The notes beneath the pieces were generated by a model. The model was not told the DNA's origin. It saw nothing but the letters and a program-made list of their open reading frames with translations, and did not search any database. The translations under genes were made by a program, and so were the position numbers. From Lentinula raphanica (Eukaryota; Basidiomycota; Agaricomycetes; Agaricales; Omphalotaceae), in assembly GCA_027919835.1 (NCBI GenBank), contig JANVFP010000011.1:434001-498000 (forward strand): a stretch of DNA of 64,000 bases, written 5' to 3'. Of the stretch, positions 16,659-63,093 are shown piece after piece (the first letter of the stretch is position 1; every line of letters starts with the position of its first letter).

Positions 16659-16659
16659 A

Positions 16660-17970: not shown

Positions 17971-17973
17971 ACA

Positions 17974-20580: not shown

Positions 20581-20652
20581 ATCCCAGCTTTCAAGCCACT
20601 CTCGGACTTCAAAACTCTCTGATTCTGCACCACCACATCCAACAGTCAAACG

Positions 20653-22296: not shown

Positions 22297-22643
22297 ATAT
22301 CTGGTAATGACACAGAGTCTTGTATAACACAGTGATGGCACCCAAAACTCTCGCCTTGAAATTCACACAGTACTGTTATGAGAAGCCCATCTTCTGTCTA
22401 CTTACAACTGAACGGAAAGCCAAAGCTCAAGTGGAGAGCTGTGGAGAGGCATGAGGAAGGTGTTGAATCCCTCAGTCCTCGGGCTCAGTCTCCGACGGCG
22501 GGTCTCGGATGTCTCAAGGTACATAAGCCGCCTATCAATGAGGCTTTTACTTTTTTCTCTCCAACATCCATCTTGTGTTCTTCCTTTCCTCTGCTGGCCA
22601 GCGAAAAAGGAACGTCGAAATCCAAGCACGATCCGACACTCAG

Positions 22644-30425: not shown

Positions 30426-30431
30426 CTGCTT

Positions 30432-31618: not shown

Positions 31619-31619
31619 T

Positions 31620-32325: not shown

Positions 32326-32329
32326 CCCG

Positions 32330-33560: not shown

Positions 33561-33735
33561 CCTGCCGTGAAGGGTCCCCAGGCATCGAAGTCCCGGTGCC
33601 GCTCGTTGGGTTCGTGACAGCATCTGATTCTGGGGCCGATTGCACCTGTCGTGAAGGACCAGATTCATTTGTGTGCTGTTCATCGGGTTCGTGTGACCTG
33701 ATCCTTGGGGCCGCCGTTCTTCCTGCAATCGTTGA
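33556..33735 (-). pseudogene. C-terminal remnant of the 30.4 kb secreted-protein family
   Basis: The minus-strand translation contains ESGPSRQVQSAPESDAVTNP and TSGTGTSM, equivalent to ESRQTQAAQGPGATNP and TGGTGTSM at the end of the gene at 30432. The N-terminal two thirds are missing. It lies directly next to the duplicated 3' flank and ends against the gene at 33743. Confidence 0.6.
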
Positions 33736-33742
33736 TACGCAG

Positions 33743-35489: not shown

Positions 35490-36480
35490 GGATAACGATC
35501 GGATGAATTCGGGAATAGGGATAGGGAGTGCGTAAAGCGTCTTCGAAAGTCAAAACAGAGGGGAGGATGTGGATGATGAGCAACTGAGTTACAGGGAAGG
35601 ATGTGAGTGCAGTTGAGTGTGCTGAGACGGAGAATGATGATGGATGTGGGGACGAATGCAGCAGAAATGACCTTTTCAAAGTGTATAGCCCAGTGTTAGT
35701 TGGACCGTTGAAACTTGAAAGGGTTTAGAATGGAGGACTCACAGTCAGAATTTAGACGATTCTGATAAGGGTTTTGACCAGCAAAGATAGTAGGTGAAAA
35801 AAAATCAAGGATTGTGTCGACAATGCTCAACTGGGATGTAGCGGTGAGTCCGTTGAGAATGGCGAGGATGGACTAGTGCATACCGAACCAGCGCTGAGCA
35901 ATGGTGTTTTGTGAGAGGCTTTCAACGGTAGAGAGTTTGAACTTTCGCGTTCAAGCTGTCTTAGCAAGGCGAGGGTGACGGGCGAGAAGAAAAAATCGTT
36001 CTTGAATGAAGGTGTGAGGAAAAGACATCAGTGGGCAGGCGCACATTTTTAGCCATCCGCGCACATTTTGCTCTTCAGTCTATTGGCTGGAGATCTGCAC
36101 GGAACTCGACGGAACGATGCTTAGACCAAGATTTCAACCACAAGACAATACACAAGAGTTGAACAACGTTTCAACCTATCATGGTGTCCTCATCATGGCG
36201 AAAAGAGGCGGGGAGTCGGCGTAGCCTCCGAGTCGTCCCAGCCCAGTCGAGTCTTTTGAATGCGGAAGAGAGGCAGTCGTAGCGAGCGTCGACAGAGATC
36301 TCCCACAGATAAGAGCAAAGTTATGGTGAAGCAAGCAGATTATATGCAGATAGTCATCTTCGAGTTCCTTGATGAAGGACACTGCGGGGATGAGACCGTT
36401 TTCTCGACGCTTAAAGGCTGATGTTATGAGGAGGAAAAGTACAAAATCCTCAGACTTTTCGGAAAGCGGAAATTTATAAT
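35490..36480. other. upstream flank, no gene seen
   Basis: This interval contains the region upstream of the 580-residue gene, including an ATACCGAACCAGCGCT motif near 35881 that is shared with 28.5-28.8 kb. Short frames at 35428-35679 and 36179-36382 have no support. Confidence 0.4.
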
Positions 36481-36489
36481 ATTCTCACC

Positions 36490-37132
36490 ATATTTAGAGT
36501 AAGGTTATATAGCGGAAATCGAGCGAAAATTTGATATTACAGACGCCTACCCTCAACGAGGAAATTTTTGAAACTCTCACAGAGGAAATTGCTAGTGTCC
36601 CGGGTGATTTTATTCGGATGATTTTCGAAATTCTCTCTAAGCGGAAATGATAGCCAAATTGGGATGATTTTTTAAAAATTCGCCAGATATCCTCGCCAAG
36701 GTTATTTCCAATTTCCAGCCAATTTCCGCCTCGAGGATATGGTGAGGTTCTTCTGAATATTCTCGCCGAGGTTATGTGTACCGGACGTCGGGATGTCAAG
36801 ACGTCGAGACGTCCCCGACATCGGAATAGCAAAATGTCGGGACATCCTGATGTCGGAATGGCGGGCCACAAACGTCGGGATGTCGGAACGCGTGACATCA
36901 CTGATGTCGGGGATGTCGGAACGCGATTGTTGAAGAGTACCAAGTACTCTTTTGCATCTACATCCACCACTCCGTCGTTTGTTCACCTCACCTTTCTCAC
37001 TAACTCACTCGTCCTTCGGCATTATGCATCAAACCAATAACTGGCTTAAGGGTCTGAGCTCACCATTCGCGGGATGATGCTCGACGTAGTCGAAGATCAG
37101 CCTTCTGAACTCGATGCCGATTGCAGGATCCA
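36490..37132 (-). repeat. dispersed repeat rich in GATGTCGG palindromes, copy 1
   Basis: Bases about 36577-37132 match the reverse complement of 63437-64000 closely over more than 550 bp. At 36776-36930 a cluster of GATGTCGG/CCGACATC motifs in both orientations alternates with GACGTC-like sites. The remainder repeats CGAGGATAT/CGAGGTTAT and GCGGAAAT motifs. Both copies share an identical spurious 94-codon frame. It could be part of a transposable element (LTR or other) or a segmental duplicate; no transposase or target-site duplication was seen. Confidence 0.8.
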
Positions 37133-39563: not shown

Positions 39564-41326
39564 ATGCAACCGATGAAAACCTCGTATACCCAGCTGGGAA
39601 CGATAGAGGCCCCGACGGATTGCGTGCACGCATTGGCCTTCTCAATGGACGGACGTTACTTGGCGAGTGCTACTAATGACAATATGCTACGCGTTTACGA
39701 TGTCCAGCGGAGCTTCGCAACAGTTTGGGAGGAAAAAGGTCCCTCTCCATTCACTGCTGTTGTATGGAGAGATAGTACACTCTTTTTTGGCAGTATGGAC
39801 GGGACCATATCTTGCTGTTATCCAACCAAAGTAAGTGCCAGCGTCTTTCGATAATTCTTCCACTCTTTACCAAGAACATTGCCAGAACTGGATCTTTCAA
39901 CGAAATACCGAAATCATTTACAAGACCGATGACCCAGTTCATGCTCTAGAATTCAATTCGCGGGGCGACTACCTTCTTGTTTGTGCAGGTGCTGATGTGT
40001 TTCTTTTTGAAAAAAGTGTGTGCAAGTGCTAGTCTGTTAGCAGATCATGTTTCTGACCTTCGTTGTAGGTTCAGGGAGGTGGAATTATCGCGACTACCTT
40101 CCTCGTCCAGATCCGTTTGGAGAACCTAATTTCGGCGATGTACACCCAATCATAGTCACCGGCGCTCATTTTCTCGAGAACGATGAGCAATGCATTATAG
40201 GTTATCTCTATAACGGGTTCTGGTAAGATCGAACTTTTTGAACTCAAGAACTCAATGTGAGCCTAATACTCGAATCGTGACCCAGGAAGTTCAGTTTCGA
40301 CACTTGGGAGAACACCAACGTTTGGGGACCAGACTATACATTTGACTCAAATGACCCAAGAAGGTGTTACGGGAGAATGTAGGAAACGTATACACTCAAA
40401 CTGCACAATATCAGCTCCTGAATCTGTCAATTTCCCAGTGCGGCTTCAGCAAAGTCTCCCGACTCTAGGTCGATCGTTGCAACGGATGCTTGTCTAGGAC
40501 TACAATGGTTCAAAGTCACGCCGGAAAGGCTCAAGAGCATGAGCGTCACGTATCACGTCCAGGATCTTGCGTCCAACATTCCTCTTCCCGTCTTGTTCAT
40601 AAATCAGGGTGAAGCGGTGATTGTAGGTTCGACCAAAGGGTGTGCCTTGATTCTGGAAACAAAACGTGCGGAGAAGATACAAGCCCTTAAGCACGGGAAT
40701 GGTAAGACTACTGATTCTTTCAAATGGTTGTATTCAGTATGATCTCAGGCTAATACAGATCGCACCTGGGTTACTGCATTGGTATGATATTGAACCCTGG
40801 TCATCTCGTGTTCGCTCAATGTTGATGGATGAGTTAGGCTTATGTCGAATTGGTCGGTCGCCGTCGAATAATTGCAACGGGTGATGGGAATCGAGGAAAG
40901 CAAACAAGAATTATATTATGGGCTGAAGATAAGAAGGTTTCCTCGTTCTTGAATCTACCCAAGTTCTGGCATACCATGCGCGCAACCGTGAGTTTTCGAG
41001 CACACTGCCATACATTGATTGATCAGTTCCGATTCCAGTCTTCGTACCTCCTGACCATCGTGCAAGTGGTCTTTATATCTTTGGGCATCATCTCTACTCT
41101 GTCGTGGTTATATCCTGCACTGTGGAGCAAGGCGATCAGGCTAGTGGACGTCCGGAAAATCTTCTCAGGGTTCAACTTCAGTTTCAATCTCATTCCTGAC
41201 ATCCCATTCTCAAATCATTTGTCTGCCACAATCCCTACTGCTACGCCATCTCCTTCGAAGACAACAGCGGAGAAACTTTTCGAGGCTTTCGAAAATCTAC
41301 TGGTATGTGTCATGTTTTCTCGTTGA
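39564..41326 (+). CDS. WD40-like repeat protein with a C-terminal membrane segment
   Basis: Seven exons (39564-39830, 39886-40015, 40069-40222, 40286-40363, 40439-40701, 40759-40781, 40838-41326) join in frame to 467 residues. WD40-type blades are visible: DCVHALAFSMDGRYLASATN followed by LRVYDVQ, DPVHALEFNSRGDYLLVCAG, and SPDSRSIVATDACLGLQWF. Near residue 375-400 a hydrophobic stretch (LLTIVQVVFISLGIISTLSW) should span the membrane, leaving the propeller on one side and about 70 residues on the other. A 39-bp GT-AG stretch at about 40988-41026 could be an additional intron without changing the frame. The first blade may be incomplete, so the true start could be further upstream. The role is not known. 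Confidence 0.72.
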
Positions 41327-42330: not shown

Positions 42331-43360
42331 ATGTCCAGCCTTCCTGCAGGAAAAATAGTATCTGATCTTTGTGCGTTTTCCGCTCGTTCTCTTCTCGTCT
42401 TTCTCTTTTCGTCTTTTCGATTGGTTACGATGAAACGCAACACTAACTTCTCTTTCTCTTGCCCTTCAAAGTTACCACTGGCGATGTGTCCTTTCGTTCT
42501 TCTGATGGTGTCCACTTCCGAATCGATCAATGGCGTCTGGAGTTTATTTCGAATATGTTTCCACCTATCATATGCCATCCCAATGAGGTTATAGAGCTGT
42601 CCGAAGACGCTAAAACCCTTGAAATCCTTTTCACCTTCTTGTACCCAAACCGTTCCACTCCTGATATTGGTGCTCTTTCGTTCGACGATCTCGTGAAGCT
42701 AGTCAATGCTACCAATAAGTATGCGTTTAACTCAGCGATTGAGATCAGTCTGTCACTTCATTTCCAGTAGGTGATTTTTACATTAAGAGATTTTGACTCG
42801 TCTGAAAGCCACCTCAGGAAATACGCGCAATCTTTCCCATTGAGAGTTCTTCTCTTAGCTGGAACGCACAATAACAGCGCTCTTCTTGCTGCTGTGGCTC
42901 CCTATCTTATCAACTTGAAGCCCGAGGTGATAGAAACGATAGGCTTTTCGGCCAAGCTTTGCACTAAGTGGGTGAGTCCAACCGTCCAACCCTTATAGTC
43001 ACTATTATATGTTCTCATCTCAAAAATCAGAGCGAATACCAAAACAAATGGTTTTCTACCATCATCGCGAGCGAGGAAATTCTTAACGCCCACGACAATC
43101 AGTGCTCTCGCTGGTGCGACTGTATCCATCCATATTTGCTCGCCCAAATCGAGTCTTCGATGAGTCCAATCTATCGTTTGATGAGGGGTACGAGCACGAA
43201 CAACCAGAAGGGGCTGTGGGAGGTATATGAGAACGTGATGAAGAGGCTCGAGGATGCTCGGGACGCGCACAAGGATAAGTTGTGCTGTGAATTGGAGTTG
43301 CGGAAATGGTTCTACCATGTGGTAGATGAGCTCCGTGGTATCCAATTTCCGTTGGATTGA
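42331..43360 (+). CDS. BTB/POZ-domain protein
   Basis: Four exons (42331-42370, 42472-42766, 42818-42971, 43031-43360) join in frame to 272 residues. TTGDVSFRSSDGVHFRIDQW opens the BTB fold (the D.....G..F..H-like region), followed by SNMFPP, VIELSEDAKTLEILFTFLYP and a DLVKLVNATNKYAF helix. The C-terminal part has the DPP-type wrap seen in Agaricomycete BTB proteins, with a Cys-rich WCDCIHPYL motif near residue 195. BTB domains mediate dimerisation and often recruit targets to Cullin-3 ligases; in these fungal expansions the partner is unknown. A relic with the same second half lies at 37.07-37.42 kb. Confidence 0.85.
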
Positions 43361-45922: not shown

Positions 45923-46775
45923 ATGCGCGCTGGGCTCCTTGACCAAGCACTTCAAATCAAGATAAAGAAGTCCATTCGCCAATTTGCGAGTTCAAACACC
46001 CCAGTTCCTGCGATGCTTTTTGTTGCTGCCACTTCTACTGCTACATACACTGCGTCAGACGCTGATTGGGCCGACGTTCTCAAACGCTTCTTCACCTCTG
46101 CCACTTCCGCCGCTACATACACTGCGTCAGACGCTGATTGGACCGACGTTTTTCAACGGTTCTTCACTTCTGCCACTTCCACCGCTACATCCATTGCGCC
46201 AGAAGCTACTTGGGCCGGCGTTCCAAAACAACTCTTCGCTTTACACCGTGACCCCAAGGATGCCCTGTTCAGTGTGGTTTCATATTGGACCCGTGAAGAA
46301 ACCACGGGGACGCTCATCATACTTGGGATTGTTCTTTGCTTCACCCTTGGTCTCGGTTTGATCGTAGTCAGTTCCTTCAAAGCGGTAAGTAGATTCAGAT
46401 GCTTTTATCCTTACGAGAGTGGCTTATATCTGATGCCTTTGTTGAACGCAGTGCTATTATACTGTAAAACGATTTTGTTCTTGGCTCTACAGAAGTAATC
46501 CATGGGCTAGAATGCACGAGCTTGAACGGCGAGAGAAAGCTGTAGAGCTCGAAGAGGCCATGGTTGCTCGACAGGCTCGAAGCCTTGCATTGGATGTTGA
46601 GATCGGTGTTTGCAAACGTCTTCTAGAAATACTCCGACGTTCTGTGACATCCACGGAAGACAGAGAGTTCGAGTTGGAGAAAGAAAAGGAGGCATTGCTG
46701 GAGGAAATTCTCCGCGATGAGCGCGATGTGATGGATTTTAGGCGTCGCTTGCCAACGATGGAGCCAGAAGAGTAG
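45923..46775 (+). CDS. membrane protein with 24-residue repeats and coiled-coil tail
   Basis: Exons 45923-46384 and 46452-46775 join in frame to 261 residues. Three repeats of 24 residues (ATYTASDADWADVLKRFFTS type; DNA unit 72 bp) fill residues 35-107. A strong transmembrane helix follows (GTLIILGIVLCFTLGLGLIV), then a charged segment, then about 90 residues of Glu/Arg/Leu-rich coiled coil (ELERREKAVELEEAMVARQ). The layout suggests a single-pass membrane protein with a repeat domain on one side and a coiled coil on the other. The start at 45923 is the first in-frame ATG; 46011 is an alternative. The family was not recognised. Confidence 0.65.
46026..46241 (+). repeat. three 72-bp tandem repeats in a coding region
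   Basis: Units start CTGCCACTTC at 46026, 46098 and 46170. The first two are nearly identical and the third is more diverged. Each encodes 24 residues containing a D-W dipeptide (ATW in the third) and a final FF or LF. Confidence 0.88.
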
Positions 46776-47142: not shown

Positions 47143-48962
47143 ATGAACGTCAACGGTGCGTAGCTTACTTCTTCCGCTCTGCATCGATGTTTTTTTCTCT
47201 CCGGCAGCTGGACAGACGTTTCAATGCCAAGCCTATCGAAGGGGCCAGGCTTGAACGCGTTCGTTGACCAGCTGCCTGTAGAAAAAACATCCTTGCTAGC
47301 GTTTCTCAGAACTTCCGGGTTCTAGCTCAACAGCACTTACAGGGCTTTCTATTCACACCCAAAGAATCAAGTTTCCAGACTTTGACTTAGGTCTAAGTTT
47401 AAAAGACGACGGTCTACGGCGTGCCGAGGCGGAGGAGGCAGGAGAGAGTTTTGAAGATGGCGAACATGAATTCGAAGACTTTGACGAGGTTGTGAACCCT
47501 TCGATTCCCGACGCAACAGGCCGGCCTCTATCTCAAGGTGGAGCCTGCCTACCAGAAACGCCGGGTTCAAAAAGCCGTTCTCAGCAAAAGAAAGCAGATA
47601 AAACCGCGAAGGCCCGTCGTACGCGTCAGAAGAACGCGTTGCGGCGTAAAGACGAACAGGGCTTGAAGGATTTAGCCGTTCAAGTTGCGCAGAACGCGTC
47701 ACCAATCGAGTTACAGAGTTTTAATGCTGCTGATCTCCCGGTTGCTTCCACCGGGTGGTCTGGCAACAACCGTCAAAAGCTTTCGCCCGGGCTCACGCGC
47801 GTTTGGAAGGATCTTGAACTCTTGAGAAGCATGCAAGGTCTGAAGCTGCTGCCTTGGGATGGACGGTGAGCAATCATTTTAAACCGCTTCTTTGCTCGGA
47901 AGGTCCTGAACAGGATTGATTTTTCTTTAGTGCTTGTGTTGTTCTTTTGGACAGGAAAGACCGCATCGTCGCTGTCTTAGGAGGTGTTCCCCCGGCGTCA
48001 GCAGGATCCGACTGGGATGAGAACACTGTAAAACTCACGGCAGCCATGGAGACCTGCTACAAGGGGAGCACATTCACCAAGAAACAAATGGGGGGCCGTC
48101 GGGGCCAATTCGCTTCACGAACAGTGGGCTACGGTTATGGAAACGGCCGTAAAACACCTCTGAATTACAAGATCTCTGGCGAGACGAATCAGGCAGCGAT
48201 ACAGGAACTTTTGAGAAATCGAGCTGTCCGGCGGGTCGTGGGCTTTACTGATTGTACGTTGCGACAAGATGCCATGGGCTTCACTCACCAACTCCCTTCA
48301 TAGGTTTGTTCAACGCCTTTGCTCATAAATTATACCAGGATTACGAAGCTACTAACCGGGAAGTCCTTTGTCATCACCCTCATCTTCGTTCAAATTTCCC
48401 CGAGAAAACCGTTTTCGCGGCTCTCACCCTTAATCTCGGCCCTCGGTCGTTCTCCCCTCCTCACATGGACGCCGACAACGGTGCTGGAGGTTGGTGCACG
48501 GATACACCGGCTGGAAATTATGACCCTGACAGAGGCGGGCACCTAGTTTTGTGGGATATGGGGCTTATTATCCGCTTTCCTCCAGGCTCAAGTATCCTGT
48601 TTCCCTCTGCCTTGATCACCCATTCAACACTTCCAATCCAAGAGGATGAAACTCGTTATGCCTTCATTCAGTATTCCTCCGGCGGCCTCTTTCGATGGCG
48701 GAGGAACGGCTTTCGTTCAGATAAAGATGTTCAGGCGGTGGCATCCCTCGAAGATCAAGCAAGGCTGAAGGCTGAACGAGCTTCACGCTGGAAAGTCTCG
48801 TTGCAGAAGTTCACAAGGTGGAATGATCTTGTCCACGGAGACTGGCAGGGTAAGCGGCGTACGGAGGCTGGGCTTGATGAAATCAGTGACCTCACAGAGT
48901 CGGACGATGAAGAGAAGCACAAAATGGCTAGGGCAGCAAGAAAACGCCAGCGTCATGATTGA
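47143..48962 (+). CDS. TET/JBP-like 2-oxoglutarate/Fe(II) dioxygenase
   Basis: Exons 47143-47155, 47343-47865, 47955-48253 and 48304-48962 join in frame to 497 residues. The C-terminal half is a double-stranded beta-helix dioxygenase. Iron ligands H332 and D334 lie in SPPHMDADN; GGHLVLWDMGLIIRFPPGS is the family's core strand; H385 in LITHST is the third ligand and R396 in ETRYAFIQYSSGG probably binds 2-oxoglutarate. This pattern and the trailing FRWRRNGFR match the TET/JBP family, expanded in basidiomycetes, whose members oxidise 5-methylcytosine or thymine in DNA. The N-terminus (about 200 residues) is charged and basic and may bind DNA. All active-site residues are present. Intron 1 (187 bp) is unusually long and holds a hairpin. 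Tail-to-tail with the next gene. Confidence 0.85.
47186..47292. repeat. long hairpin in intron 1 of the TET/JBP-like gene
   Basis: The left arm GATGTTTTTTTCTCTCCGGC continues with AGCTGGACA; the reverse complement of the right arm reads GATGTTTTTTCTACAGGCAG, then CTGGTCA. Arms of about 45 bp pair imperfectly around a short loop near 47235-47248. Inverted arms of this size are not seen in other introns here. Confidence 0.75.
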
Positions 48963-49299
48963 TCCTTATCTTGCACCGTCGCCTGTCGTTTGGACTACGT
49001 ATCTACATGAAGCTAACAGAGTACGCAGCAATGTATCACTTTTTCTGATCTTGTAATTCACTGAAGAAGTAGTTCAATCAACACCGAGCCCAGATGAGAT
49101 TAGAGAGCATAATACACTATATGCTACAACTGTGAGAGCATGATCAATGAACTGTGTCTACATAGGGGTGGATCCAGCACCAGACGATCATCTGACATCG
49201 ATCACCGCTTGTGTTCTAAGCTACGCCGGGGTATTTTCGCTGGGACAGAACTCTGGAAACCGGATGAGTTTGTGAGATGCTTTGGGGAGAAAAAACCGC

Positions 49300-51219
49300 T
49301 CACTTCGCAAGGTCTGCAGGAAATACTAAATGCTTCACTGGACGAGGACGGATAATCTGATTGACAAAGCCTGCACCGCCTTTTGCCCATCCAGGTTCCT
49401 GGTTCTCGAGCCATTCCGCGTCGTAGAAATTGACCGGCAAGCCAGCCACATAAGTGCTTTTCGACGTCCTGTCATCGTTATCCACACGGAGGCGAGGAGC
49501 AGCGCCTCGTGTAAAACCGAACGTGGTACCTTCGGAATCTACGGAGCATCGGCCTTCGAGATGAACAAAATCCAATAGCCGAAGCCACTTCGCGAGCACA
49601 CGACTCCGCCAGTATGGTGCTTTGATTTTATAACGCATATTGGTGGAACTCATCTCAGAATCCTCCTCATCAGACGACATACCACCCACACCTAATTGAT
49701 CAAAATCTTGAAGAAACGGCTCGAGCTCAGGGACCGTATTTATCACGTCCCTTCTGCGATGGAATAACTGCGCCGAGACGTGTTACCGGTGCCATCACAT
49801 AATATTCAAGAATAAAGAAAACTCACGTTGTATTTCCTCTGTCGTCTTCTCATGGACACAGCTGATGGCTCCGACTTGTCATCCTGCATTTTCTGCTTCT
49901 CCAACCAGTATCCACGCAACGTTTTCAGCCGCACGAAGAAAGCTTCGCGGATACGATCGCGGGTTTCGAGGTCGGGCTTCGGGATGAGTCTCTTTTGCTC
50001 AAGAATTTCTATGAAAACGTACGAAGCGCCTTTGTTCCAGGCCGATTTAGGAACGCCTGCAATCCAATACCGAAAATTCTGAGCAGTGCACGGGCGCGCA
50101 AGGGGATCCTTCTTGAATATCTCAGCGAATTGATCGGCTTCGTCCTGTGTAACCTCGTTTCGGTAGAGATCACGGTTTTCCATCACTTCGTTGAACCATT
50201 TACGCATCACCTCCTACAAAGGCCATGAATTCGTGAGCCAATATCAGTGGAATAGACACCTGCCTTATCTCTGAGCTCATCCTGAGGACGACGCTTTACC
50301 TCTCCAGAGCGAGCACTTCCCTGTTTTTTGGTACCAGAGCTGAACGCAGCTGTATCTTGACCTCCATCGCCTTGGTTAGAATCATCAGCACAGCGAACAG
50401 TCGCTCTCAAAGTTGACGCCCTACCTTGTCGACGTTCCGAGTCTTCGTTGACCGTCGCATTCCCTTGGTGTACATTCCTTTTGTTCTTCGCGGATAAAAC
50501 GTCCAGCTTCTCTACAACCTGACCAAGGACAGCCGAGTTTTGCTGAACGCTACTGGCTAGTGTATTGATTTGCTCTGACTGTTTATTCGCGAGTTCGACG
50601 TTGGAATTTCGTATACCAGTGTACAGCTGCTGCATCATTTTCGTTTGCTGATCAAGCAACGCCTTCAGCTAGGAACGTGTTCAATTCTGAGATCATCAAT
50701 CAGTGCAACTACGAGATACCTACCATATCCATGCCCATTCCTTGACCGGAACTGCCACTCGATTGAGAGGGCTGAGGTGGAGGGGTATGAGCTCTTCGTT
50801 TTTTAGAAGCTGGCGGGGCTGCAGTTGGCGACGGGGGCGGCTAAGGCATAGTTAGAATTGTCGCGGATGAGTCGTTCTTTGTGTTGACACACCTGCATCG
50901 ATGGTTGACCTTCTCGGAAGTCCGACGCTCTCGGAGTAGCCTGAAGATCGGCCATCGTAGCGTTCTGGCGGTTGGGGGTCTGGGGAGGTGTCTGACCTAC
51001 CCCATGCTCTTCTACTGGTGCTGGGTACCCGCTGATACTTTGATTCGAAGGACCAGGATGCGTCTGTGGTAGCTCTGATGCTCCAGATGTAGTACTACCC
51101 TGCGATACTCCCTGGTGTTGAGGAGTTTCCTGATTGGCATTGTTGTTTTGGTCGGGGTCCAAGTCCATATCCGATGATTCTGAATCACTATCAGTGGCAA
51201 GGCCTCCAGGAACTCTCAT
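49300..51219 (-). CDS. regulator-like protein of unknown function, convergent to the TET/JBP-like gene
   Basis: Five exons (50893-51219, 50724-50840, 50258-50668, 49827-50213, 49300-49767) give about 569 residues. The donor at the end of exon 3 is read as GTCTAT, so that boundary is tentative. The N-terminus is acidic then Pro/Gln/Ser-rich and carries a PASKKRR nuclear-signal-like motif. A Gln-rich helical segment (DQQTKMMQQLYTGI) suggests a coiled coil. Exon 4 has VMRKWFNEVMENRDLY, FRYWIAGVPKSAWNKG and LRGYWLEKQK, rich in aromatic residues. The C-terminus contains VGGMSSDEEDSE, then RSRVLAKWLRLLD. This MSSDE-type region recurs in Agaricomycete proteins in my memory, but I cannot name a domain. 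Only 337 bp separate the stops of the two convergent genes. Confidence 0.65.
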
Positions 51220-51325
51220 TGTCGACGGGTGCTCATGGACAAAGAGATTGTTGGTTTTTATATCCGAATTCCGACTAATCTTATCACAATGGCAAGAGAT
51301 CTAACCGACGCCAGTCCCCATGTAC

Positions 51326-51814
51326 TTATCTCATGATCAGTGGACACATCTCGCCATGCATGGGGATAGTAGTATGCGCGCTAGCCTCTGAGTGACACAT
51401 GTTCTCGAGGCTGGAATGTTGCAGCCTTGCAGGAATGCATGGTGAGGATGTCCAGAATCTGAGATTGGCGATGAATGGTCTACATACATGAGGACAAGGG
51501 TCCAGGGTCTGATAGGATCCAGTGTCTTCATGCCCCCCTCCATCACGAACAGCTCCCTCTCCGGACCCAGCCCTCACAGCGAATCCATACCCGTGGTACA
51601 AAACCCAGATTCTGACGCTTCGGTAATATCTTTGCTGTAACTCTTTGAAATGGTCGTCTGACACTGTACTGCGACCAGAATACAGGGAACGTTCTTTCGG
51701 GTACAGGTCCAACAAAGTCGTCTGCGCAGATCCCTGACCGGAAACTCCTTCGTCGAAAAAACCATCAAGCCCATCGTATATCAATAGATTCGGGATTAAC
51801 AGTGGCCATTTCAT
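51326..51814 (-). CDS. possible gene or gene fragment, unknown
   Basis: The minus-strand frame from 51814 reads GLDGFFDEGVSGQG, LLDLYPKERSLYSG and FKELQQRYYRSVRIWVLYHG, which looks protein-like for about 90 residues. After AVRAGSGEG the composition changes, and an intron or frame end is likely. No domain recognised. It lies between two genes of the dioxygenase-transposase block and may be a cargo gene fragment. Confidence 0.35.
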   Translation of the reverse strand: MKWPLLIPNLLIYDGLDGFFDEGVSGQGSAQTTLLDLYPKERSLYSGRSTVSDDHFKELQQRYYRSVRIWVLYHGYGFAVRAGSGEGAVRDGGGHEDTGSYQTLDPCPHVCRPFIANLRFWTSSPCIPARLQHSSLENMCHSEASAHTTIPMHGEMCPLIMR

Positions 51815-51879
51815 CGCTTTCAGGAAGATACTTGTAAGTGCTTCAACCTTGTATCGGTCATATTTTCATCGAGAACCTT

Positions 51880-52315
51880 GTGTCCAATCATTAGCTAGTC
51901 GATATTGATCTTCCGAAAATACTGCTGAACGCCGGTATCTTGAGTTATCTGATGTTCGCACTGAAGATGATCTGGAAGTTATCAATAACATTCCGCAGTC
52001 AGCCATATACCGTTGGATTCCTAGTCCCAAGCGTTGCGACCTATGTCCTTGTCCAACGCTATTCTCCAGGCAAGTCTCATGAGAGCGTGAGTCAGCTTTT
52101 TGCACACATAGGGAATGAGTTACTGATCATGACATTATACATATGAACAGAGAATCTTTCGAGCTGCTGTGGACATCACTATTCTCGCAGGCACCTTCAT
52201 CTGTACCTTCATTCTGTGGTCGTTGATATCGTTTATGGGGGACGTGGGAGCTATGGTTCTCTTAGCATTCAGTTTTGGAACGCGATATCTATCGGTATTG
52301 GGCAATATCAATGTT
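51880..52315 (+). pseudogene. partial membrane-protein gene related to the 59.8-61.1 kb gene
   Basis: The plus strand encodes two hydrophobic stretches: LPKILLNAGILSYLMFALKM near 51918-51977, and then, after a probable intron ending AACAG at 52151, RIFRAAVDITILAGTFICTF with LWSLISFMGDVG. They align with SLPQALFKVGALIYLLFLGR and VVDSITFVGAFTCVSIIWQT of the gene ending at 61068. The N-terminal part is missing, so this may be a truncated copy; a complete short gene with undetected upstream exons is also possible. Confidence 0.5.
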
Positions 52316-52451
52316 TGAGCCTCGCGTTACTCTCGCCTATACTTTTGATAACCATTAAGAAGTGTCCCGAATCTGGGAATATTGAAAATTCTATCTCGTT
52401 GAATAAACAAACGGTGCACTAGCGAGCAAGTCCAACGCCCTCAATAGCTTC

Positions 52452-53216
52452 TCAGAATGAGCATGCTAGATGGCACAATTGGGCACACTGTTCATGGAGG
52501 GCTTGTTCACTACGACCAGAGCCCAGATTTCTCGCCAAGTCATTGAGTTCGATGCATTGTTGCACTAAAACCATGGGTAAACTTGAATCCGTTGCAGCGG
52601 AATCTCTTTCTGCAAGCTGAGAGGTTGAATGCGATGAAGGCTGATCATGAAACTTGTATTCAGTTTTGGGACAAGAAGGATAGACGAACAACATACGCAG
52701 GACTCCTTTGATCGCGATTTCACTTCATCCACCAAAGACCAGAAGATGTTTGGCTGTACAGAAATGAAGCATCCAAATATAAAAGTCAGCTGGCTCCGAG
52801 GAGCTTGAACCAAGGCGTTTTAGTACGTACTTCGTCTGTGAAGATTGCTTTCATGCATTGTGCCTCCGCAACGTCACATCCCAAAGAGGCCAGGATCTGT
52901 ATTCTGAGTTTATATGTAGAGTTGGTGGCGTCATCTAACTCAGACTTCAGGCGGAACGTATCGATTTGTAATTCCTTTGAGGGTAGAGTCAACGATAAAA
53001 CGTTTCAAATAATTGGAGGACACACACATATTGCGATCGCAACTGACCGAATTGACGGACTTCGTCTCGAAGCTGAACAACCTCCTGGTGTTTGAGCGAA
53101 GCTTGTTCTTCTAGGAGCCTCAAGCGCCACGTGTCGGCTGATATCAAGCGGATTTGCTGCGAAGAAAAGGTTGAAGTGGTACGATTGCAGAAGTGCGAAT
53201 TACTCACCGAGCTCAT
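52452..53216 (-). CDS. coiled-coil protein within the transposase block
   Basis: Starting at 53216 (MSS followed by a 52-bp intron), five exons can be joined in frame by GT-AG introns: QIRLISADTWRLRLLEEQAS up to QFGQLRSQ; ELQIDTFRLKSELDDATNST up to AIFTDE; PNIFWSLVDEVKSRSKESC; then LAERDSAATDSS to the stop at 52452. The product is about 170 residues. The first two segments have heptad spacing typical of coiled coils; the rest is helical with several cysteines. It is in the same orientation as the transposase, with about 480 bp between. No known family; a small accessory protein of the element is an inference. Confidence 0.55.
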
Positions 53217-53421
53217 CTTGTGTCAGAAGTAAGAAATTCTAGAGGTTGTAACTTGCACAAGCGACTCTAAGAGTATTTAAGCGTTCCCCGTTCTTTGTTT
53301 CTCATATGCGCTTTGAAGAAAATGGTATCACGAATGTTCATGGGTCTTTGTTCCGTGTATGGGGCTGAGTCGAGTAATGGGCACCGGTGTGCACGAAAAA
53401 GCCAACGAGGATCACTGATAT

Positions 53422-53477
53422 ATGAAAGGGAGCAGATGAAAGGGAGCAAATGAAAGAAAGCAAATGAAAGGAAGCGA
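53422..53477 (+). repeat. four-copy 14-bp tandem repeat
   Basis: The unit ATGAAAGGGAGCAA repeats four times with small changes just downstream of the transposase stop. The preceding GATCACTGATATATGAAAGG resembles GATCACTGAGACATGAAAGG at about 53529, so a larger duplicated segment may be present. It could be subterminal repeat sequence of the transposon. Confidence 0.8.
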
Positions 53478-53695
53478 ATGAGCTGGTTATAGTTACAAGA
53501 CGGTTTTGCTGAAGGCACTCAGACCTCAACGATGATCACTGAGACATGAAAGGTACGAATGAAATTCGTAATCGCAAACGGGTATGAATTATACAAGACG
53601 CCTATGTTGTTGCCGATCGATTACATAGTTTTTTTCGGTTTACTGCGGGATTGGCATTCCAGATGCATTGTCTCGGAATATCTATGCTCGAGCAT

Positions 53696-56600
53696 TCATG
53701 AGGTCACTCGCTCGAGACAGAGAAACCAAGTCCTCACCTTGGGAACAGGATACACATGCGTGACAGCGTTTTCTTTGATAAGAAGCGTAAGGTCTGTTCT
53801 GACAAAGTGTGAAATCACATCTCCTAAAGGAACGGTCAACGTCCTCCTGGTCGCCGTCTTTGATTGTAAACATAACCACCCGCAGCTGAGAGTTCGATAC
53901 AAGTCATCTTCCTCGCTGATTGGCTGCAGAGCTATGACTTCGAAATACGTACTTGCGACCGATTCCTTCGTGACGGGGTGAGGGTGAGTATGTCGAATGA
54001 TTTTGTTGATCGTTCCAGCTAGTATTGTCCCTTCGCCGCGAAACACAACGGAGCTCTCGCGAGGCTTACAGGAGTAGATCACCCGTCCGAGCGCTACTCC
54101 ATCTAATTGTTGAGCCCGCCGAGCTACTTTACCATCCCAGTATGATCTATGAACATCATATTTCACACACAAGCAGTCCACAATGCGGTCCAAAGCAGAT
54201 CCGTCGATGTAGACAAGGGTTTCCTTGAACTCAGTACTAGCCCAAGCAGATAAATCGGTCCCGGCGAACATACCACGATGGTCTTCGCGTTCAATGTCTT
54301 GAAGCACTGCCAATGCTTCTTCGATATCTTCCCGAAGCTGAGGATACTGGTCCAGTAAGATTTGTAGATTGGCCATTTGACCATATGAAGACATCATCGT
54401 AGCTTCAACTTCACCTGCGATGACCATATTTCACCGTATAACAAGAACATGGTCAAGGAACGAGCTTACCCAGATGACCGTTCTTCTTCATGTCTTGTAA
54501 CAAGTGGTTGATGCGTTCGAACACAGGGGTACTCCATGCGTGCCCTGGACCCATGTTTTCTAAGTCAGAGATGACGTGAAGCGCAAGATGGTGGTTCGAT
54601 GAGAGCACCACGTCAGGAAACAGTTCTAGCACCCCCCGTAGGTATTTCAAGATGGTCGATTGATAATAGACCCTTGATTCTTCAGACGTTTCACGGAGAA
54701 AGATGACATGGAGGCTATGAACTAGGTCCAAAAAGTTCAGTAGCATCTGGTAGTGGCGTGATTGGGGTTTTTCTCTGTTCCCATAACCCCATACCCGGAT
54801 CAAGGTTATGACCAACGAGATGGAGCATACGACCTTGTATTCATCGGCGCTGAGCTTTCCTGTCGCAGGGATACCCCACTTTTGGGGTGCCGGTTGAATC
54901 CAGCTGGGAAGCACGGATCGTGCCATATCTGCCCATATTTTTTCTAACAGATCCTTCCCGATCACTGCTCTGGGGGAATTTTGCTTCAGATTGCTGTCGC
55001 GATGCTCTTGGCGCTGAAAAGAGTTGAGTCAATGTAAGCCCACTAGTTTCTAACGCGACGGTAACATGTCAACTTGCCCACAATAACAATCGTCGTACCA
55101 TGTCGTCCTTCTTCAACGACCTGACGGTTGTGGAGTCAAACGGCGGAATTTTATACTCTCTGCACAGCTGCTCCAGCTGCTGATGTGGCCAAGATGTCAG
55201 TGTCGCCTTTGATAGCTCATTTTCTTCGAAATTTTGCTTGAGTTTTCCGTATCGTAAGTTCGAAGAATATGCATTATCGTCAGCTCCATTTTCTTGTCTC
55301 TGCATTTGATTATCAATAAGAACGTTATCGTAACCATAAAAAGACACATACGTAGAGTAGAAGACGTCCTCCCAGAATCTTCTTTGTATCTTTCGAGTTG
55401 TAGAGGATGTTGAGATCTTGGCACAACGCTTGAAGAACCAATTTTGTGCAGTTCGAGAACGAAGGAGCTCTCGAACCCAAGTTAAGTAGCTTGGATTTCA
55501 GGTCCTCAAACGCTTGGTCTTTATCGAAATGAAAGGCTGCCGCCGGTTTCGATACCGGGGGTAGCATGTTGGGATCTGCAACTGAGGTAGCTCTCGAGCT
55601 AAAGGACTTCATACAAGGGCAAGCTGGTCATGATCTGATCACATCGACACAATACGGAACAAACATACTGCCTCAGACAATTCCGATTCTGACTCTTGAG
55701 CGCTAGCATTCGACTATCAGAGTGAATGACTGTGGCAAGCATGTACAAAGGAGGACGCTTACAGGCTGGACCACTGTCGGCTTGTCACCTACCCAACCAT
55801 CGGGGATTTGATCATAGTCGAGAGGAGGAATCTCAGGTACCTCTTCTGCTGCAATATTTGAGCGCTGTGACTCATGAGTTCATGAAGAGGGCTGGTGAAC
55901 GAGTAGGCTACTCACCCAATGCAAAATCTGTTTCACCATTTGCTGTTTACCCCCGGCTCCAGTACGTAGATTGAGCCAAAAGCACAGATACCAGATGACC
56001 TTCTTGTTTTCTTCTTCTAAAAGTCGCTGCAAGGATGGAGCGTTCTCCCGAATTTCATCGAGAAGACGGCGAAGGCTGGCCTTGGATAGCTTTCTTTGCC
56101 TGTCGGTGTCTGGGCACATTCCATCTCCGCCGTTTTTTTCATGATCGATCCCCCATATTATACGAAGATGAGTTCTAAATAGGCCAAGATATCCGAGATG
56201 CATATCGTCAATGACGGTGTACCGAATGGGGTTCCAATACGGCAACTTCAGCAGCTCTGTCCAACGGACTCCGTGATCCCTGTATATTGCTTCGCGTCGC
56301 ATCTGAGAAGCTTCTTTCCATTCGAGAGCGAGTTCTTTGTGTTTGTCAGGGTCCCGCATGATCCAGGTATTTGGCTCAAGGTTATGGATGTCGCTGATTG
56401 GCAAGAGACAACGTCTACAAAAATGGGTATGATTGTGTGCAGCAAAGCCAGAAATTTGAATCGCAGCTTCCGTATCACACACCGCAGGGAGTAGCGCTAT
56501 GAATACTGTTCGACCAAGGCGATAGCGAGCCGTACGCGTGTAAGAGATGCCTTGCCAGAATGGAAGCAGTTGCTCGACCAACACGCGCAAGGTATAGTTG

Positions 56601-58177
56601 ATGTGATGTTGTTTGGGCTTCCCGGGAATCACAGTGATGAGACACATGTATTCTTGTCGGTATCGAAGATGTTCAGGGAGAGATAAAAGCACCAAATACA
56701 GAGCCGTGGACTGGATTTGAGCGTGAGTCTCTTTCTGGTAGAAAGGATTGAACCCATCGAATCCAAGGCTCATTACAAGTCGCAGATCTGGGTTTCCAGA
56801 CAAACCTATCTGGGGCTGTGCATATGGTTGTCCGTCTGGCCCCTTAAGTTCACGAAAGACGGAAGAATCCACGAAATCTCTTGCCAGACCTGGTTCTGGT
56901 GGGGGTACATGGTGTTGGTGCTCATTAATCACATCCTCGATGCCGGGTATACTCAGCAGTCTCCCAATCCATGATTTCAAGTCCTGAAAAACCTGCTTTC
57001 GAATCGGGGCCAGGAACGAATGTTTTCCGTTCTTGAGAATTCGCCATAACGTGGCTCCACACAACGGTGAGTCCGGAGAAGACCTCTCTTTGCACACAGG
57101 GAGAGGCAGGTCAGCTTTATGCGCGTTTTCGGCTTCAGTAAGCACCTCTCCGGTGAACGGATAAAGGGCATGGCATCGGGGGCATAAGATTGAGACATGT
57201 AACGTAGGATTGAGGTTGAGATGGTCTACGATGGTGTGAATGTCTTTCGGGATCATGGATGGAACTTCAGACTGAATCCCGTGACGCCTGGCAAAGGCTC
57301 TGAGTACACAACGTAGCAAGGCAAGATTCACCCGCATGTTACGGGTCGAGCTCCGGTTCTTGATGTACATGATCAGGGCAGCGAGGAGAGTCGGTGTCGC
57401 ATCTGTCAGTCGCCTCTCAGCAAAATGAAGACCTGGATATTCAGAGGTTCAGATATGAATAACTCGCAGGATTGAAACACAACACGTACCATTGTCAACA
57501 GTGGATCCCCCATGTCCATCAGGATAAGCCTGTAATGTCCATTGCCACTCTTTGATGCGGTGAATCTTATTCAATGCCTCAAAAAGCTCTTCCTGCACAT
57601 CTACTTCTCCAAATGAACGGTGTTCGCGAGGGAGGGATTGAACGGTTTTTAGCAGATGGCAGAATCTTGCCTCCGCATCCAACAGGCGATAATTGGTGAT
57701 CTTCTTCGTTTGCAAAGCGAAGTCACCTGTGTTCACTTCGAGAAGACTCTCAGAGTCTGGAAACACAAAGGATAGGTTCGGTGAAGGATCATTGATGAAG
57801 ACGAGACGAGTTTCGCAGTCGCAGAGTGTTTGCAAACGCATAGAAATTTCGGATGTTATACTTCCTAGCCAGCCGTCGGTAGATTCGGTGGAAATGGAGC
57901 TCGAGACGGACGGAAAAAAGGGAAGGTCCTCCGAACGATGGGATTGAACAGCAAGTCCCTCGCTGTCAGGTTCTGCAGGTCCTATTGCTCCTCTATCAGA
58001 CGGTTGTGATCGTTCTATCCTCGATAGAAAATTGGTCCTGAGACGCTCCCGATGTCGATGCTCTGTTAGAGTCGAATGAGGGACAAGGACTCCGTCGGGG
58101 TTGTGCTTTAAGCAATCTTGGCAACGACACGGCTGAAGGTTGGAGCCATTCGAGCCACCTCTATGGCGGCGGGCCAT
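53696..58177 (-). CDS. CMC/CACTA-type (Tnp2/Plavaka-like) transposase
   Basis: Eight exons (57490-58177, 55916-57432, 55763-55864, 55669-55713, 55352-55606, 55078-55299, 54470-55013, 53696-54414) join without a stop into 1363 residues. The N-terminus has a Cys motif (CRCQDCLKHNPDG), then Zn-ribbon-like Cys pairs (ILCPRCHALYP, CGATLW). The RNase H-like core shows SLGFDGFNPF with the first Asp (about residue 455), AVCDTEAAIQISGFAAHNHT followed by FCRRC (second Asp about 549), and IDDMHLGYLG. Two SAP-like helical motifs follow, one with LEQLCREYKIPP. The C-terminal ALHVISDLENMGPGHAWSTP resembles the DUF4218-type region of CACTA proteins. Intron 6 is probably GC-AG (GCAAGT). The intact frame suggests recent activity. 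Confidence 0.88.
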
Positions 58178-58179: not shown

Positions 58180-58850
58180 CAACAGCAAAGTGAACTTGAT
58201 ATGTTTGATACGTTGGGGACAGAAAAGAGAATCGACGGCCTGGTACCGGTGCCTCTGGTGGCGCGCGCGCGCGCTATTAGTATTATCCGTAATAACCATC
58301 TCTTTGATCATTCGGCAGCGCTATCCCTCTATATTCCAGATCTTATAACTTCCTATCGTAGACATCAGCTCCTAGGCAGGTAGACATCAGAAAGCATTAT
58401 GCAGGGCCCGTGAATTATTCCGATGTCATGACTTACGTGAGAATCAGGCTAGGGTTCAAACGTTCAAGAATCAAACTTCAACATCTTCAGAACCACTTCA
58501 GGTACTTGCCCACTGACGAGAATGGAGCCGGACGAAGGCCAAGACACAGACACATCCGAAAGTACAGCAGTAGGTTATTCGCAGGCTTGGATCATAGCCC
58601 GATGCTGATTAACTGCAGCCCTCTGTGTGGTGGAGAAGGCAGACATATGATTATGCCACCTATTATTTGGACGACGATGGAATGATTCAGAAGATTCATC
58701 ACGATCCAGGCGTTGAGGAGTCATAAGCCAGAATAATATTGCGGATATTTGAGAGGGTCACTGAAAGTGAATGCAGTAACACGAAGGCAAGAGGACGTGC
58801 AAAAACCCCCCCTCCGAAAGGCGGGCTCAGAAAGTCCGAAAATTCCAGTT
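58180..58850. other. 5' flank of the transposase, element end not located
   Basis: This holds the upstream region of the transposase, a (GC)6 run at 58261-58272 and a possible short plus-strand frame at 58410-58685 that I do not support. I looked for inverted termini shared with 46.8-47.1 kb and with 53.2-53.6 kb and found none by eye. Confidence 0.4.
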
Positions 58851-58858
58851 AGTCTTTC

Positions 58859-59416
58859 TTGAGATGTCCGTATCGTGTACTGAGGTCTGTGTTGATTGTA
58901 GCGTCTGCGAAGGATGGCGATAGAGGATTCACCCCCGTTAGCTTCAAGCCTTTGACACGCCCCGTTAAGTACTTCGTGCCAGGAGGGCGTACAAACACCA
59001 CGAATGAACCATTTGGCCCAACGAAGCTGGAAACGACGTCTTTCAAGTCGATCGATAGCGAGGGCCATAACGCCTGGCACTCTAGTCAATCACCAAATGA
59101 TCTAGATGTCCCTCTTCCTGACACTCCAATGCCTAGAATGATAGGGACGACATATGTTCATAGAAACACTACGGATGGGGGTTACCAGGTATGGGTATGG
59201 TGTAGTCGCGAGGGAGGAGAGCTTGCATGGCAACCTGTTGACCTGAATAGCGAGCAAATCGCACACCCAAAGATTCCCAACAGGTCGCTGAAATTAACCT
59301 TAACAGGAAAGCCCAGCTGGGTTCTGAATAGCACATTGACGACTTATCAGAAGCGGAACTCGCGAAGATCCAAATCGCGTGCCCCCGAATCCGCTAGTGC
59401 TAGCACAACGAACTGA
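58859..59416 (+). CDS. small protein of unknown function
   Basis: One open frame of 185 residues. The middle and end look like a folded protein: GGYQVWVWCSREGGELAWQP, then HPKIPNRSLKLTLTGKPSWV, followed by a basic Ser/Arg-rich tail. The first 10 residues are doubtful and an upstream exon may exist. The antisense strand also has a frame at 58849-59046, so orientation is not certain. Lies just outside the transposase start in divergent orientation and might belong to the same element. Confidence 0.45.
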   Translation: MRCPYRVLRSVLIVASAKDGDRGFTPVSFKPLTRPVKYFVPGGRTNTTNEPFGPTKLETTSFKSIDSEGHNAWHSSQSPNDLDVPLPDTPMPRMIGTTYVHRNTTDGGYQVWVWCSREGGELAWQPVDLNSEQIAHPKIPNRSLKLTLTGKPSWVLNSTLTTYQKRNSRRSKSRAPESASASTTN

Positions 59417-59849
59417 TGAAGAGAGATGCTGCGCGATTAAACGTTTGTGGGTACTGAAATGGGGAAGACTGGTTATTGGAATTGGGATACTTACCGTGGT
59501 AGAGATATCGGTTGATCACGAATGAAGCAGTGAACGGCGCTTATGTTGTGAACTCTATTGGATTTCTGTTATAATTTATTGGATCTAGACCGCTTTGCAA
59601 ACTTAATTTGGCCTGTCACAGCCTGTCAGCTTCGTCACTCCATTCGAGTCTCCACGAGGTTCGTCGATGTGACCATATGAACCACTCTGTTTCACAAGCT
59701 CTCGTCCGCGACAGCGAAGGCTGGTTCGTACTCATGGACATGGAAGAAACAACTCTCTTTCATCATTCATATGCTTCATCATCGGTAATTATCACAATCA
59801 TCGTGTTCTAGCAAGCATGAAAGAGACTGATTGATCGATCCTAGATAAT

Positions 59850-61068
59850 GGGCTGGCGAGATAATAACAAGAACGAAGAGGAAGTCGATGGATCCAGTCA
59901 CTTGGAGAGTAAAGATACTGATGACACAGAGAGTCAGAAATCCATGATCGAAGTATGCTCTGTTCATCTCTCCGAACTCATTCCTGATTATTCCCGCCGG
60001 TATGCGTTGTAACCGCAGAGTTTCCCTACAAATCCTAACATCCTCTCGAATCATACTGAAAATTGGCCACATGCAGAAACGGTAAATACGTTCAGTGTAT
60101 GAGTCTTTTATTGCTGACGTATGTCTTCACAGGTCACTGCGAGCCCCCCAGATATCCAGAAGTTGATCATCGATGAAACTCCACCTTTGCAGGACCCCAG
60201 ACAGAACGTGAACGAACCTATCATACATCCCATCTTTGCAATGCCAGTGAGAATGATACAGCTCCTGTCGAACTGACATCTGAAGTCTCATTCTCAAGGA
60301 TGTGTCTAACTCCCTGGGCACGAGTAACCCACAGGTCACGCATGATCAGTCAGTCAAACTGACGGTGGGTGGACTTATTCAACCTCATAATTCAGACAGA
60401 TTGTAAATCTTTCTCCACAGGTTCTATCCAGCTCACCAGAACGTCCCGCGAGTCCAGAAAGCGTAAACGAGAAAGTGAGCTTGCTCATCGTATGGATTTT
60501 TAGATCATGCTCATCTTTTTTTCCAGGAATTGCCCAATTCCTTGATCAACTCGACTAAGATTCCCAGCGTTGATCAGCCCTTCATAGTGTTATCGGACCT
60601 TCTCGACCGTTTCGGAACTCTCATCGTGAGTCTCACAAGGATCAAGACACGAGTGCATTGTATTGAAGTGTTTCCATGTTACAGATAATCAATTACTCTC
60701 TCCCGCAAGCCCTGTTCAAAGTGGGAGCTTTGATATACCTGCTGTTTCTAGGTCGAGTAATGCGAAAGATCTGGTTGATGTTTCAAAGCCAAGCGCTTGC
60801 TGTGGGGCTTGGAAATCTCGCTCTCAGTATCATGATATCGTTACTCGTTCGACTCAATGTTCACGGGCAAGTTAGAATGCAACTGGATGAGGTAGGCTTC
60901 GTCGATGTTAGTTCTGACCGTATTGCTTATGCTTACCCTCGAATTGCTCAGAAATATACGGTTCCGGAAACTGTCGTCGACAGTATTACTTTTGTGGGCG
61001 CCTTCACCTGTGTCTCTATCATCTGGCAGACGGCTCTGATTGTTGGGGACTTCGTAGCTTATCTCTGA
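59850..61068 (+). CDS. multi-exon membrane protein of unknown function
   Basis: The clearest exons are 60421-60472 (SSSPERPASPESVNEK), about 60528-60624 (NSTKIPSVDQPFIVLSDLLD) and 60685-61068. The last exon encodes two or three hydrophobic segments (ALFKVGALIYLLFLG, LGNLALSIMISLLVR, SITFVGAFTCVSIIW) around a polar loop and ends at 61068. Upstream exons are acidic and polar (NKNEEEVDGSSHLESKDTDD near 59867) but their joins are unclear. The same hydrophobic pattern is found at 51880-52315. It may be an integral membrane protein with a cytosolic acidic N-terminus. No family recognised. Confidence 0.5.
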
Positions 61069-62593: not shown

Positions 62594-63093
62594 TCACTCG
62601 GTTGCAGCTCTGAAGAGAAGCGGGCGAACGATAGATTTCCATGCTAACCGCCTGTTCACGGAAATCTCGAAGATTTCTACATGTGTCTTTTGGCCTAAAG
62701 AGGGGGTTTGCAAATTGAGCAAAAGCAAAGCGAGATACATACATTGATAGCAGTGAATTCGCGGCCTTTCGGAGCACCAGAGTTCCAACAACAAATGTGC
62801 TAAAGATTCTACAGGAACAAAGATCGATTGATACATCGAGGGACAAGGGTGAACTTACCGGCCCTTCGTCTCTTCATAACTGTGATTGGTGGCATCCACC
62901 TTCGATAGGCAGACGGGCACTGCCTATCCCATTCTCCTTTTCGTCGAGCGAAGTCTTTGGTCATCCCGATCTTCCATCGGTGACCACGATCAACAAACGC
63001 GTAGAGAAAACCGGGCCCATCCGCGAGAGACGTCGAACGCGACCGCCGAGAAGCGTACAGCGTGTGCAATACACGAGGGGATCGTTTAGACAT
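62594..63093 (-). CDS. T5orf172 (GIY-YIG-like) domain protein
   Basis: Three exons (62859-63093, 62743-62808, 62594-62694) join in frame to 133 residues. GFLYAFVDRGHRWKIGMTKD followed by FARRKGEWDRQC is the signature of the T5orf172/Mug113 branch of the GIY-YIG superfamily (the G-x-(L/V)-Y and the K-I-G-x-(S/T) strands, then Arg). The second exon has ESLAHLLLELW with the expected Glu of the helix, and the third has KTHVEIFEISVNRRLAW, matching the usual CG..H.EWF-like end. These short proteins are abundant in Agaricomycetes. A DNA-nicking role is plausible from the fold, but no function is established for the fungal proteins. Confidence 0.75.

Follow-up and report, generated by a model that had tools for sequence, protein, structure and literature searches.

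The 64-kb window analysed here (bases 434001-498000 of contig JANVFP010000011.1 of Lentinula raphanica, called C11) contains a 27.8-kb element in which a TET/JBP-like dioxygenase gene and a Tnp2-like transposase gene lie between terminal inverted repeats (TIRs), and the element is almost certainly one mobile unit. The best explanation of the whole, to which we give a probability of roughly 60%, is a cut-and-paste CACTA/EnSpm transposon whose cargo includes a dioxygenase that would counteract silencing. The genome comprises 49.06 Mb in 75 contigs, which are named by number (C4, C11, C13, C19, C24 and so on), and coordinates without a contig prefix refer to the window. Its spliced genes, its KDZ and Plavaka transposase matches and a CcTET-like protein agree with a mushroom-type basidiomycete. 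All gene models are splice predictions from sequence alone.

The element spans 36380-64191, with its right end (C11:498191) 191 bases outside the window, and has a 3-bp target-site duplication (TSD), GGA, on each side. The left TIR (36380-37131, 752 bp, forward strand) starts with CACTGCGGGGAT, and similarity to a second copy on C13 starts at the same base. The right TIR (63436-64191, in the window up to 64000, reverse strand) is an inverted match to the left one, and the two 752-bp repeats (36380-37131 and inverted 64191-63436) are 98.5% identical. The element therefore runs between two defined ends, CACTGCGGGGAT...ATCCCCGCAGTG, that is, CACTG...CAGTG. Since both the dioxygenase and the transposase genes are located between TIRs flanked by a TSD, their proximity is not due to chance. 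An initial annotation of this DNA had proposed a mobile unit with a base-oxidase-like gene at 47-58 kb; the TIRs, the TSD and a second copy bear out the unit, and its extent is corrected to 36380-64191. Element ends, TSDs and further copies, which that annotation suggested looking for in the genome, were all found.

The second copy is present in two parts at contig ends, the left part on C13 and the right part on C19. The C13 part matches from exactly position 36380 to the contig end, with 99.4% identity over 19.2 kb in a DNA search, and the C19 part covers 57620-64192 in three pieces that are 98.7-99.6% identical, also at the contig end. Its left flank on C13 and its right flank on C19 both carry the TSD GCA. 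The C13 part differs from the C11 element by 39 substitutions in 19.1 kb, so the move is recent. Most single-base gaps between the copies are within the last 1.7 kb of C13, and their crowding probably reflects errors at the contig end. The last exon of the dioxygenase is an open frame in the second copy, with one of 218 residues changed. When the flanks of both insertions are joined, no long open frame crosses the junction (the longest are 81 and 110 amino acids).

Two features of the second copy count against the preferred explanation: its middle, corresponding to 55574-57619, is unseen, and its C19 part has approximately 3.1 kb of extra sequence (at about 59016-59029) and a further 170 bp (at about 62820). 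Either the second copy gained later insertions or the C11 element lost those stretches. A copy that is broken at two contig ends with an unseen middle could also arise if a dioxygenase gene merely happened to share one segmental duplication with a transposon. This is very improbable, since similarity ends exactly at the CACTG ends, the two copies differ in their flanks and in their 3-bp repeat, and the same ends also delimit the 8.07- and 40.0-kb elements, which have their own TSDs. The extra 3.1-kb stretch itself (approximately C19:1106148-1109289) is flanked on both sides by 14 bp of window sequence (59016-59029), and looks as if it were another inserted element.

The end motif CACTGCGGGGATNNNNCC occurs at 38 sites in the genome, and a backwards control has 0. 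Of these sites, 22 form 11 facing pairs, two are the C13 and C19 ends, and 14 are single. The larger pairs are the 27.8-kb C11 element (TSD GGA), a 40.0-kb element at C24:564872-604881 (TSD TTA), for which about 24 of the 40 kb were examined, an 8.07-kb element at C16:176410-184483 (TSD AGG), and a 5.6-kb pair of end motifs at C16:538159-543800. The remaining seven pairs are 557 bp long, resemble miniature inverted-repeat transposable elements, and have CACTGCGGGGAT ends (C2:302467, C3:1994180, C10:984070, C29:146078, C32:358724, C32:560271 and C60:4883). An eighth 557-bp copy, on C22, has one end changed. Of two 557-bp copies checked at both ends, one is flanked by the TSD ATT and the other by none. 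The C-terminal region of the transposase is missing from the 8.07-kb element, which thus looks like a deletion derivative, and in the C24 transposase a stop in frame interrupts the CxxC motif. No dioxygenase was found inside the 8.07-, 40.0- and 5.6-kb pairs among the matches listed, a list in which 83 of 147 candidates were scored, so a degraded copy may have escaped notice. The dioxygenase moved with the C11 element, but because relatives exist in which none was detected, it is not obligatory in this CACTG-ended family, and the expectation that dioxygenase and transposase always travel together does not hold.

The transposase gene (53696-58177, reverse strand) encodes 1361 amino acids in eight predicted exons, and the model (58177-53696) has no internal stop. 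The Pfam Transposase_21 (tnp2) match has an E value of 1.9e-6 and 27.7 bits, just below the 28.6 cut-off; a C4 transposase that is 36% identical to the C11 protein has a Transposase_21 match of 67.8 bits. The motifs DGFNPF, VCDTEA, FCRRC, DDMHLGYLGLFRTH and FERINHLL were recognised by eye only, as candidates for the DDE residues and for the C(2)C and H(3-4)H signatures expected of the CMC group. CACTA/EnSpm elements are described in PMC12730594 as having 5'-CAC...GTG-3' ends and a 3-bp TSD. The C11 ends, CACTGCGGGGAT...ATCCCCGCAGTG, have this form, and 3-bp TSDs are present at four insertions (GGA, GCA, AGG and TTA). Based on the Transposase_21 match, the CACTG ends and the 3-bp TSDs, the element very likely belongs to the CACTA/EnSpm class. 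Two other classes were rejected. The transposase has no Plavaka PF18759 match at E values up to 1, the C11 locus is outside the 129 PF18759 matches in the genome, and the CACTG...CAGTG ends are not those of Plavaka A (TGT..ACA) or B (CATCA..TGATG). For Kyakuja-Dileera-Zisupton (KDZ) elements, the Pfam scan gave no PF18758 match to the transposase, and the TSD is 3 bp and not 7 or 8 bp.

The dioxygenase gene (47224-48962, forward strand) has four predicted exons (47224-47258, 47326-47865, 47931-48253 and 48304-48962) that encode 518 amino acids; an alternative start gives 537, and the N-terminus is uncertain. The Fe and 2-oxoglutarate (2OG) ligands of this TET/JBP-like 2OG-Fe(II) dioxygenase are all in the last exon (HxD, a distal H at +53 and R at +64), and the HxD...H...R set is invariant in 6/6 aligned family members. 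The protein is likely an enzyme of the TET/JBP superfamily, as judged from its paralogs and a profile comparison. Four of the six aligned members have a Tet_JBP match (best E 1.2e-6), and two PF12851 loci, on C51 and C19, are also matched by the window dioxygenase, with 47% identity. An hhalign comparison to a CcTET-type profile gives a probability of 65.5% and an E value of 5.9e-5 with the ligands in register, from shallow profiles of 6 and 2 sequences. Direct searches argue against this assignment: the window dioxygenase has no Tet_JBP match in Pfam (the best is 2OG-FeII_Oxy_3, E 0.11) and 0 matches in the PDB, and the family profile A1 compared with solved structures retrieves no TET, only one unrelated phosphatase (E 0.89). 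NCBIfam matches 0/6 family members, and a structure prediction for the catalytic exon alone is unusable (predicted local distance difference test score, pLDDT, of 35.1).

These gene models revise the initial annotation in part. The spacing of the ligands it named (H332, D334, H385 and R396) is confirmed, but the length of 497 residues becomes 518 or 537, and the TET/JBP label is retained through paralogs and profile comparison and not through a direct Tet_JBP match. The uninterrupted transposase of 1363 residues agrees with our eight-exon model of 1361 amino acids without an internal stop, and the two genes, placed within 5 kb of each other, have a gap of 4.7 kb. Pfam supports a CMC-type transposase and not KDZ; the Plavaka label is dropped, given the lack of a PF18759 match, the CACTG ends and the 3-bp TSDs. 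The gap was thought to contain only small unrecognised genes, but this is incorrect, since a predicted 729-amino-acid gene with a conserved C-terminal part of 285 residues is located there.

The main reading frames of the element are under constraint. The ratio of nonsynonymous to synonymous substitution rates (dN/dS) for the long exon of the transposase is 0.12 compared to C16 and 0.10 compared to C24, and two C-terminal exons compared to C24 give 0.04 and 0.17. The last exon of the dioxygenase gives a dN/dS of 0.24 compared to C38 and 0.16 compared to C4, and these two loci compared with each other give 0.10. The dioxygenase values are weakened by dS, which is high for window-C38 and window-C4 and saturated for window-C53 and window-C51 (likewise for C38-C53 and C4-C53).

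Transitions between the two copies of the element are concentrated at CpG, with 43/55 compared to 24% expected at random (P 6e-17). By part, the counts are 28/34 for C13 and 7/8, 6/9 and 2/4 for the C19 pieces. This is the pattern left by deamination of 5-methylcytosine (5mC), which suggests that the element is methylated. The TIRs of the C24 element have 5/6 transitions at CpG. Two host tandem repeats have 45/193 and 18/39, and are older, hence not a strict control; same-orientation comparisons of the 557-bp copies give 3/7, 1/1 and 2/6, too few to use. The observed/expected CpG ratio is 0.98 in the element and 0.86 and 0.79 in its flanks, so there is no long-term depletion. The copies that carry the dioxygenase still show methylation-type mutations, a point against a strong version of the anti-silencing idea, yet the left and right TIRs of the C11 element have only 2/6 transitions at CpG. 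If, as the CpG bias between the copies suggests, the element is methylated despite its dioxygenase, protection would be partial.

The CcTET residues Gly331 and Asp337, which contact the base, are replaced by Asn and Cys in 6/6 family members. This also speaks against the proposed role, and suggests that the substrate may be other than 5mC. According to PMC12730594, CcTET Asp337 is essential for activity on 5mC but not on N6-methyladenine (6mA). An enzyme that acts on another base or product (6mA, thymine or a hypermodified base) and does not remove 5mC would fit these replacements, but we consider it unlikely, since the bias of the mutations towards CpG points to 5mC as the mark on the element and the residue register is taken from the shallow profiles. 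With Asn and Cys instead of Gly (or Ser) and Asp at positions 331 and 337, the AG type (CcTET/Kyakuja) was rejected. The PE type, which has HxE, is ruled out, since 6/6 members have HxD and the window protein reads HMD at this motif. The locus C6:1347522 is CcTET-like (E 4e-12) and has the Gly/Ser and Asp of CcTET 331/337, so both kinds of dioxygenase are present in one genome.

The partner gene (49300-51814, reverse strand, 729-amino-acid model) is convergent with the dioxygenase gene, with about 0.3 kb between them. Its C-terminal 285 amino acids are conserved at eight clear loci, and the genome search found one weak locus in addition. Three of the loci are in the CACTG-ended family (window, C13 and C24). 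Of the five others, four are within 78 kb of a transposase that is 50-52% identical to the C11 transposase (C21:7302, C14:533569, C45:261524 and C14:102626), and the one on C23 is not. The convergent dioxygenase-partner pair also occurs at C14:178538/179840 and C21:70346/71462, where the dioxygenase is 37-38% identical and approximately 0.5-0.6 kb separate the matches. In the 40.0-kb C24 element the partner gene (C24:565635-566542) is just inside the left TIR (564872-565424), and therefore the block from left TIR to partner, which holds the dioxygenase in the C11 element, is absent at that place.

The dioxygenase family is frequently located near KDZ transposases. The matches listed were merged by hand into 73 dioxygenase, 41 CMC, 80 Plavaka and at least 110 KDZ loci, and among these at least 19/73 dioxygenase loci are within 6 kb of KDZ (2.0 expected) and at least 26/73 within 15 kb (4.9 expected). 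CMC is within 15 kb of 5/73 listed loci (1.8 expected), a weak signal that includes the C11 element, and Plavaka is within 15 kb of 2/73 (3.6 expected). PF12851 (Tet_JBP) loci form a second dioxygenase-transposase association, in which 11/28 have a Plavaka transposase match no more than 15 kb away (1.4 expected). All these figures are rough, since the expected counts assume uniform placement and ignore transposon clustering. Another dioxygenase-CMC pair, about 8 kb apart, is in a duplicated block (C4:1722001-1740000 and C19:388433-408600) of at least 19.5 kb that is 99-100% identical, and still 99.9% identical 1.5 kb further out. This block also contains a large acidic open frame, and its Tnp2-like transposase is the one 36% identical to that of C11. 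None of the CMC, KDZ or Plavaka matches listed is within 15 kb of the closest dioxygenase paralogs (C53:89060, C38:56428 and C4:397229), and eight open frames beside these paralogs gave two weak Pfam matches only. The paralog loci C38:50001-70000 and C4:385001-405000 have two or more adjacent open frames, of unknown family, in common, so these two paralogs may belong to another mobile unit.

In the preferred explanation, the Tnp2-like transposase would act at the CACTGCGGGG ends and make 3-bp TSDs in a cut-and-paste reaction; the cargo of the element includes the TET/JBP-like dioxygenase and the conserved partner gene. The dioxygenase would most likely oxidise a modified base on the element, probably 5mC, and this oxidation would weaken methylation silencing long enough for transposition. 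We regard an anti-silencing role of the dioxygenase as evenly balanced. The relatives of 8.07 and 40.0 kb, which have inserted with their own TSDs and no detected dioxygenase, are a point against it. It is possible that the dioxygenase is passenger cargo, picked up in the same way as the WD40 and BTB-like genes, and of no use to the transposon, as these relatives and the missing left-TIR-to-partner block of the C24 element would suggest. This appears rather doubtful, given ligands that are invariant in 6/6 members, dN/dS of 0.10-0.24 where measurable, the recurrence of the convergent dioxygenase-partner pair at the C14 and C21 loci, and a dioxygenase family that is near KDZ transposases, among the matches listed, above the uniform-placement expectation.

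The general idea that a transposon-borne TET acts against silencing is already in print. Fungal transposons that carry a TET gene (TET+) are described from 11 lineages, which include EnSpm and Plavaka, and escape from silencing is proposed (Kojima 2025, PMC12730594). Like the TET+ EnSpm elements of that study, the C11 element has CAC...GTG ends and 3-bp TSDs, and combines an EnSpm-type transposase with a TET/JBP-like gene. The EnSpm elements listed there have PU or PE types only, whereas the C11 enzyme has HxD without the AG residues. The C11 element is 27.8 kb with cargo. No exchange between superfamilies was observed in the same study for the AG type. TET+ Kyakuja/Zisupton (KDZ, AG-type) elements and CcTET resemble the C11 case in having a transposon-linked TET/JBP-like enzyme with HxD, and the family of the C11 enzyme is often near KDZ transposases here among the matches listed; they differ in transposase, ends and TSD length, and the C11 enzyme has Asn/Cys for Gly331/Asp337. 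The TET+ PlavakaB elements of Agaricales likewise combine a CMC-like transposase group with a dioxygenase, but have CATCA...TGATG ends and the PE type (HxE), and the C11 element has no PF18759 match. Starships of Pezizomycotina (PMC12134995) are also large fungal elements that move cargo genes, but they are classified by a tyrosine recombinase and reach about 700 kb, whereas the C11 element is bounded by TIRs and 3-bp TSDs and encodes a Tnp2-like transposase. A literature search on Plavaka, Kyakuja, basidiomycete giant cargo transposons and CACTA elements with a dioxygenase found nothing closer, with most subscription papers outside its scope.

Three things appear to be new: how large the element is, the presence in a CACTA element of a dioxygenase of this type, and the conserved partner gene. 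The CACTA element thereby contains a member of a TET/JBP-like family that, among the matches listed, is frequently linked to KDZ transposases in this genome. The young element has defined ends, and one genome contains two near-identical copies together with relatives in which no dioxygenase was detected. This offers a natural comparison to see if a transposon gains from the base oxidase that it carries. With the base-contact residues replaced, which substrate the dioxygenase acts on becomes a testable question. As a speculative and on balance improbable extension, there may be a giant CACTA lineage (28-40 kb shown, perhaps up to about 80 kb in sister lineages) with a fourth transposon-borne dioxygenase type (Asn/Cys), convergent with the partner gene and modifying the DNA of the element. 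If true, these would be mushroom counterparts of giant cargo transposons with a built-in DNA-modification module.

Other cargo includes a WD40 protein (39564-40742, forward strand, 315-amino-acid splice model; Pfam WD40 E 7.8e-11, above the cut-off) and a weak BTB/POZ-like open frame (42450-42767, forward strand; Pfam BTB E 0.16, below the cut-off). A predicted 261-amino-acid protein (45923-46775, forward strand) has no known Pfam domain, and by eye appears to have membrane and coiled-coil character. DNA comparison shows that the block 58604-61056 is common to the 8.07-kb relative and partly to the 40.0-kb relative. A GIY-YIG-like (MUG113/T5orf172) open frame (62594-63093, reverse strand) has Pfam E values of 0.0011 and 0.0041, both below the cut-offs, and a similar stretch with 71.7% DNA identity is near the C53 dioxygenase locus.

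The surroundings of the element are repetitive on its left side, where tandem blocks of about 2 kb (three copies, 80-85% identical) and of 0.65 kb (80-88% identical) occupy 14800-22400 and 29900-35400. Some 8 kb beyond the right end of the element, C11:506001-518000 has an observed/expected CpG ratio of 0.48-0.68, and perhaps consists of older methylated repeats.

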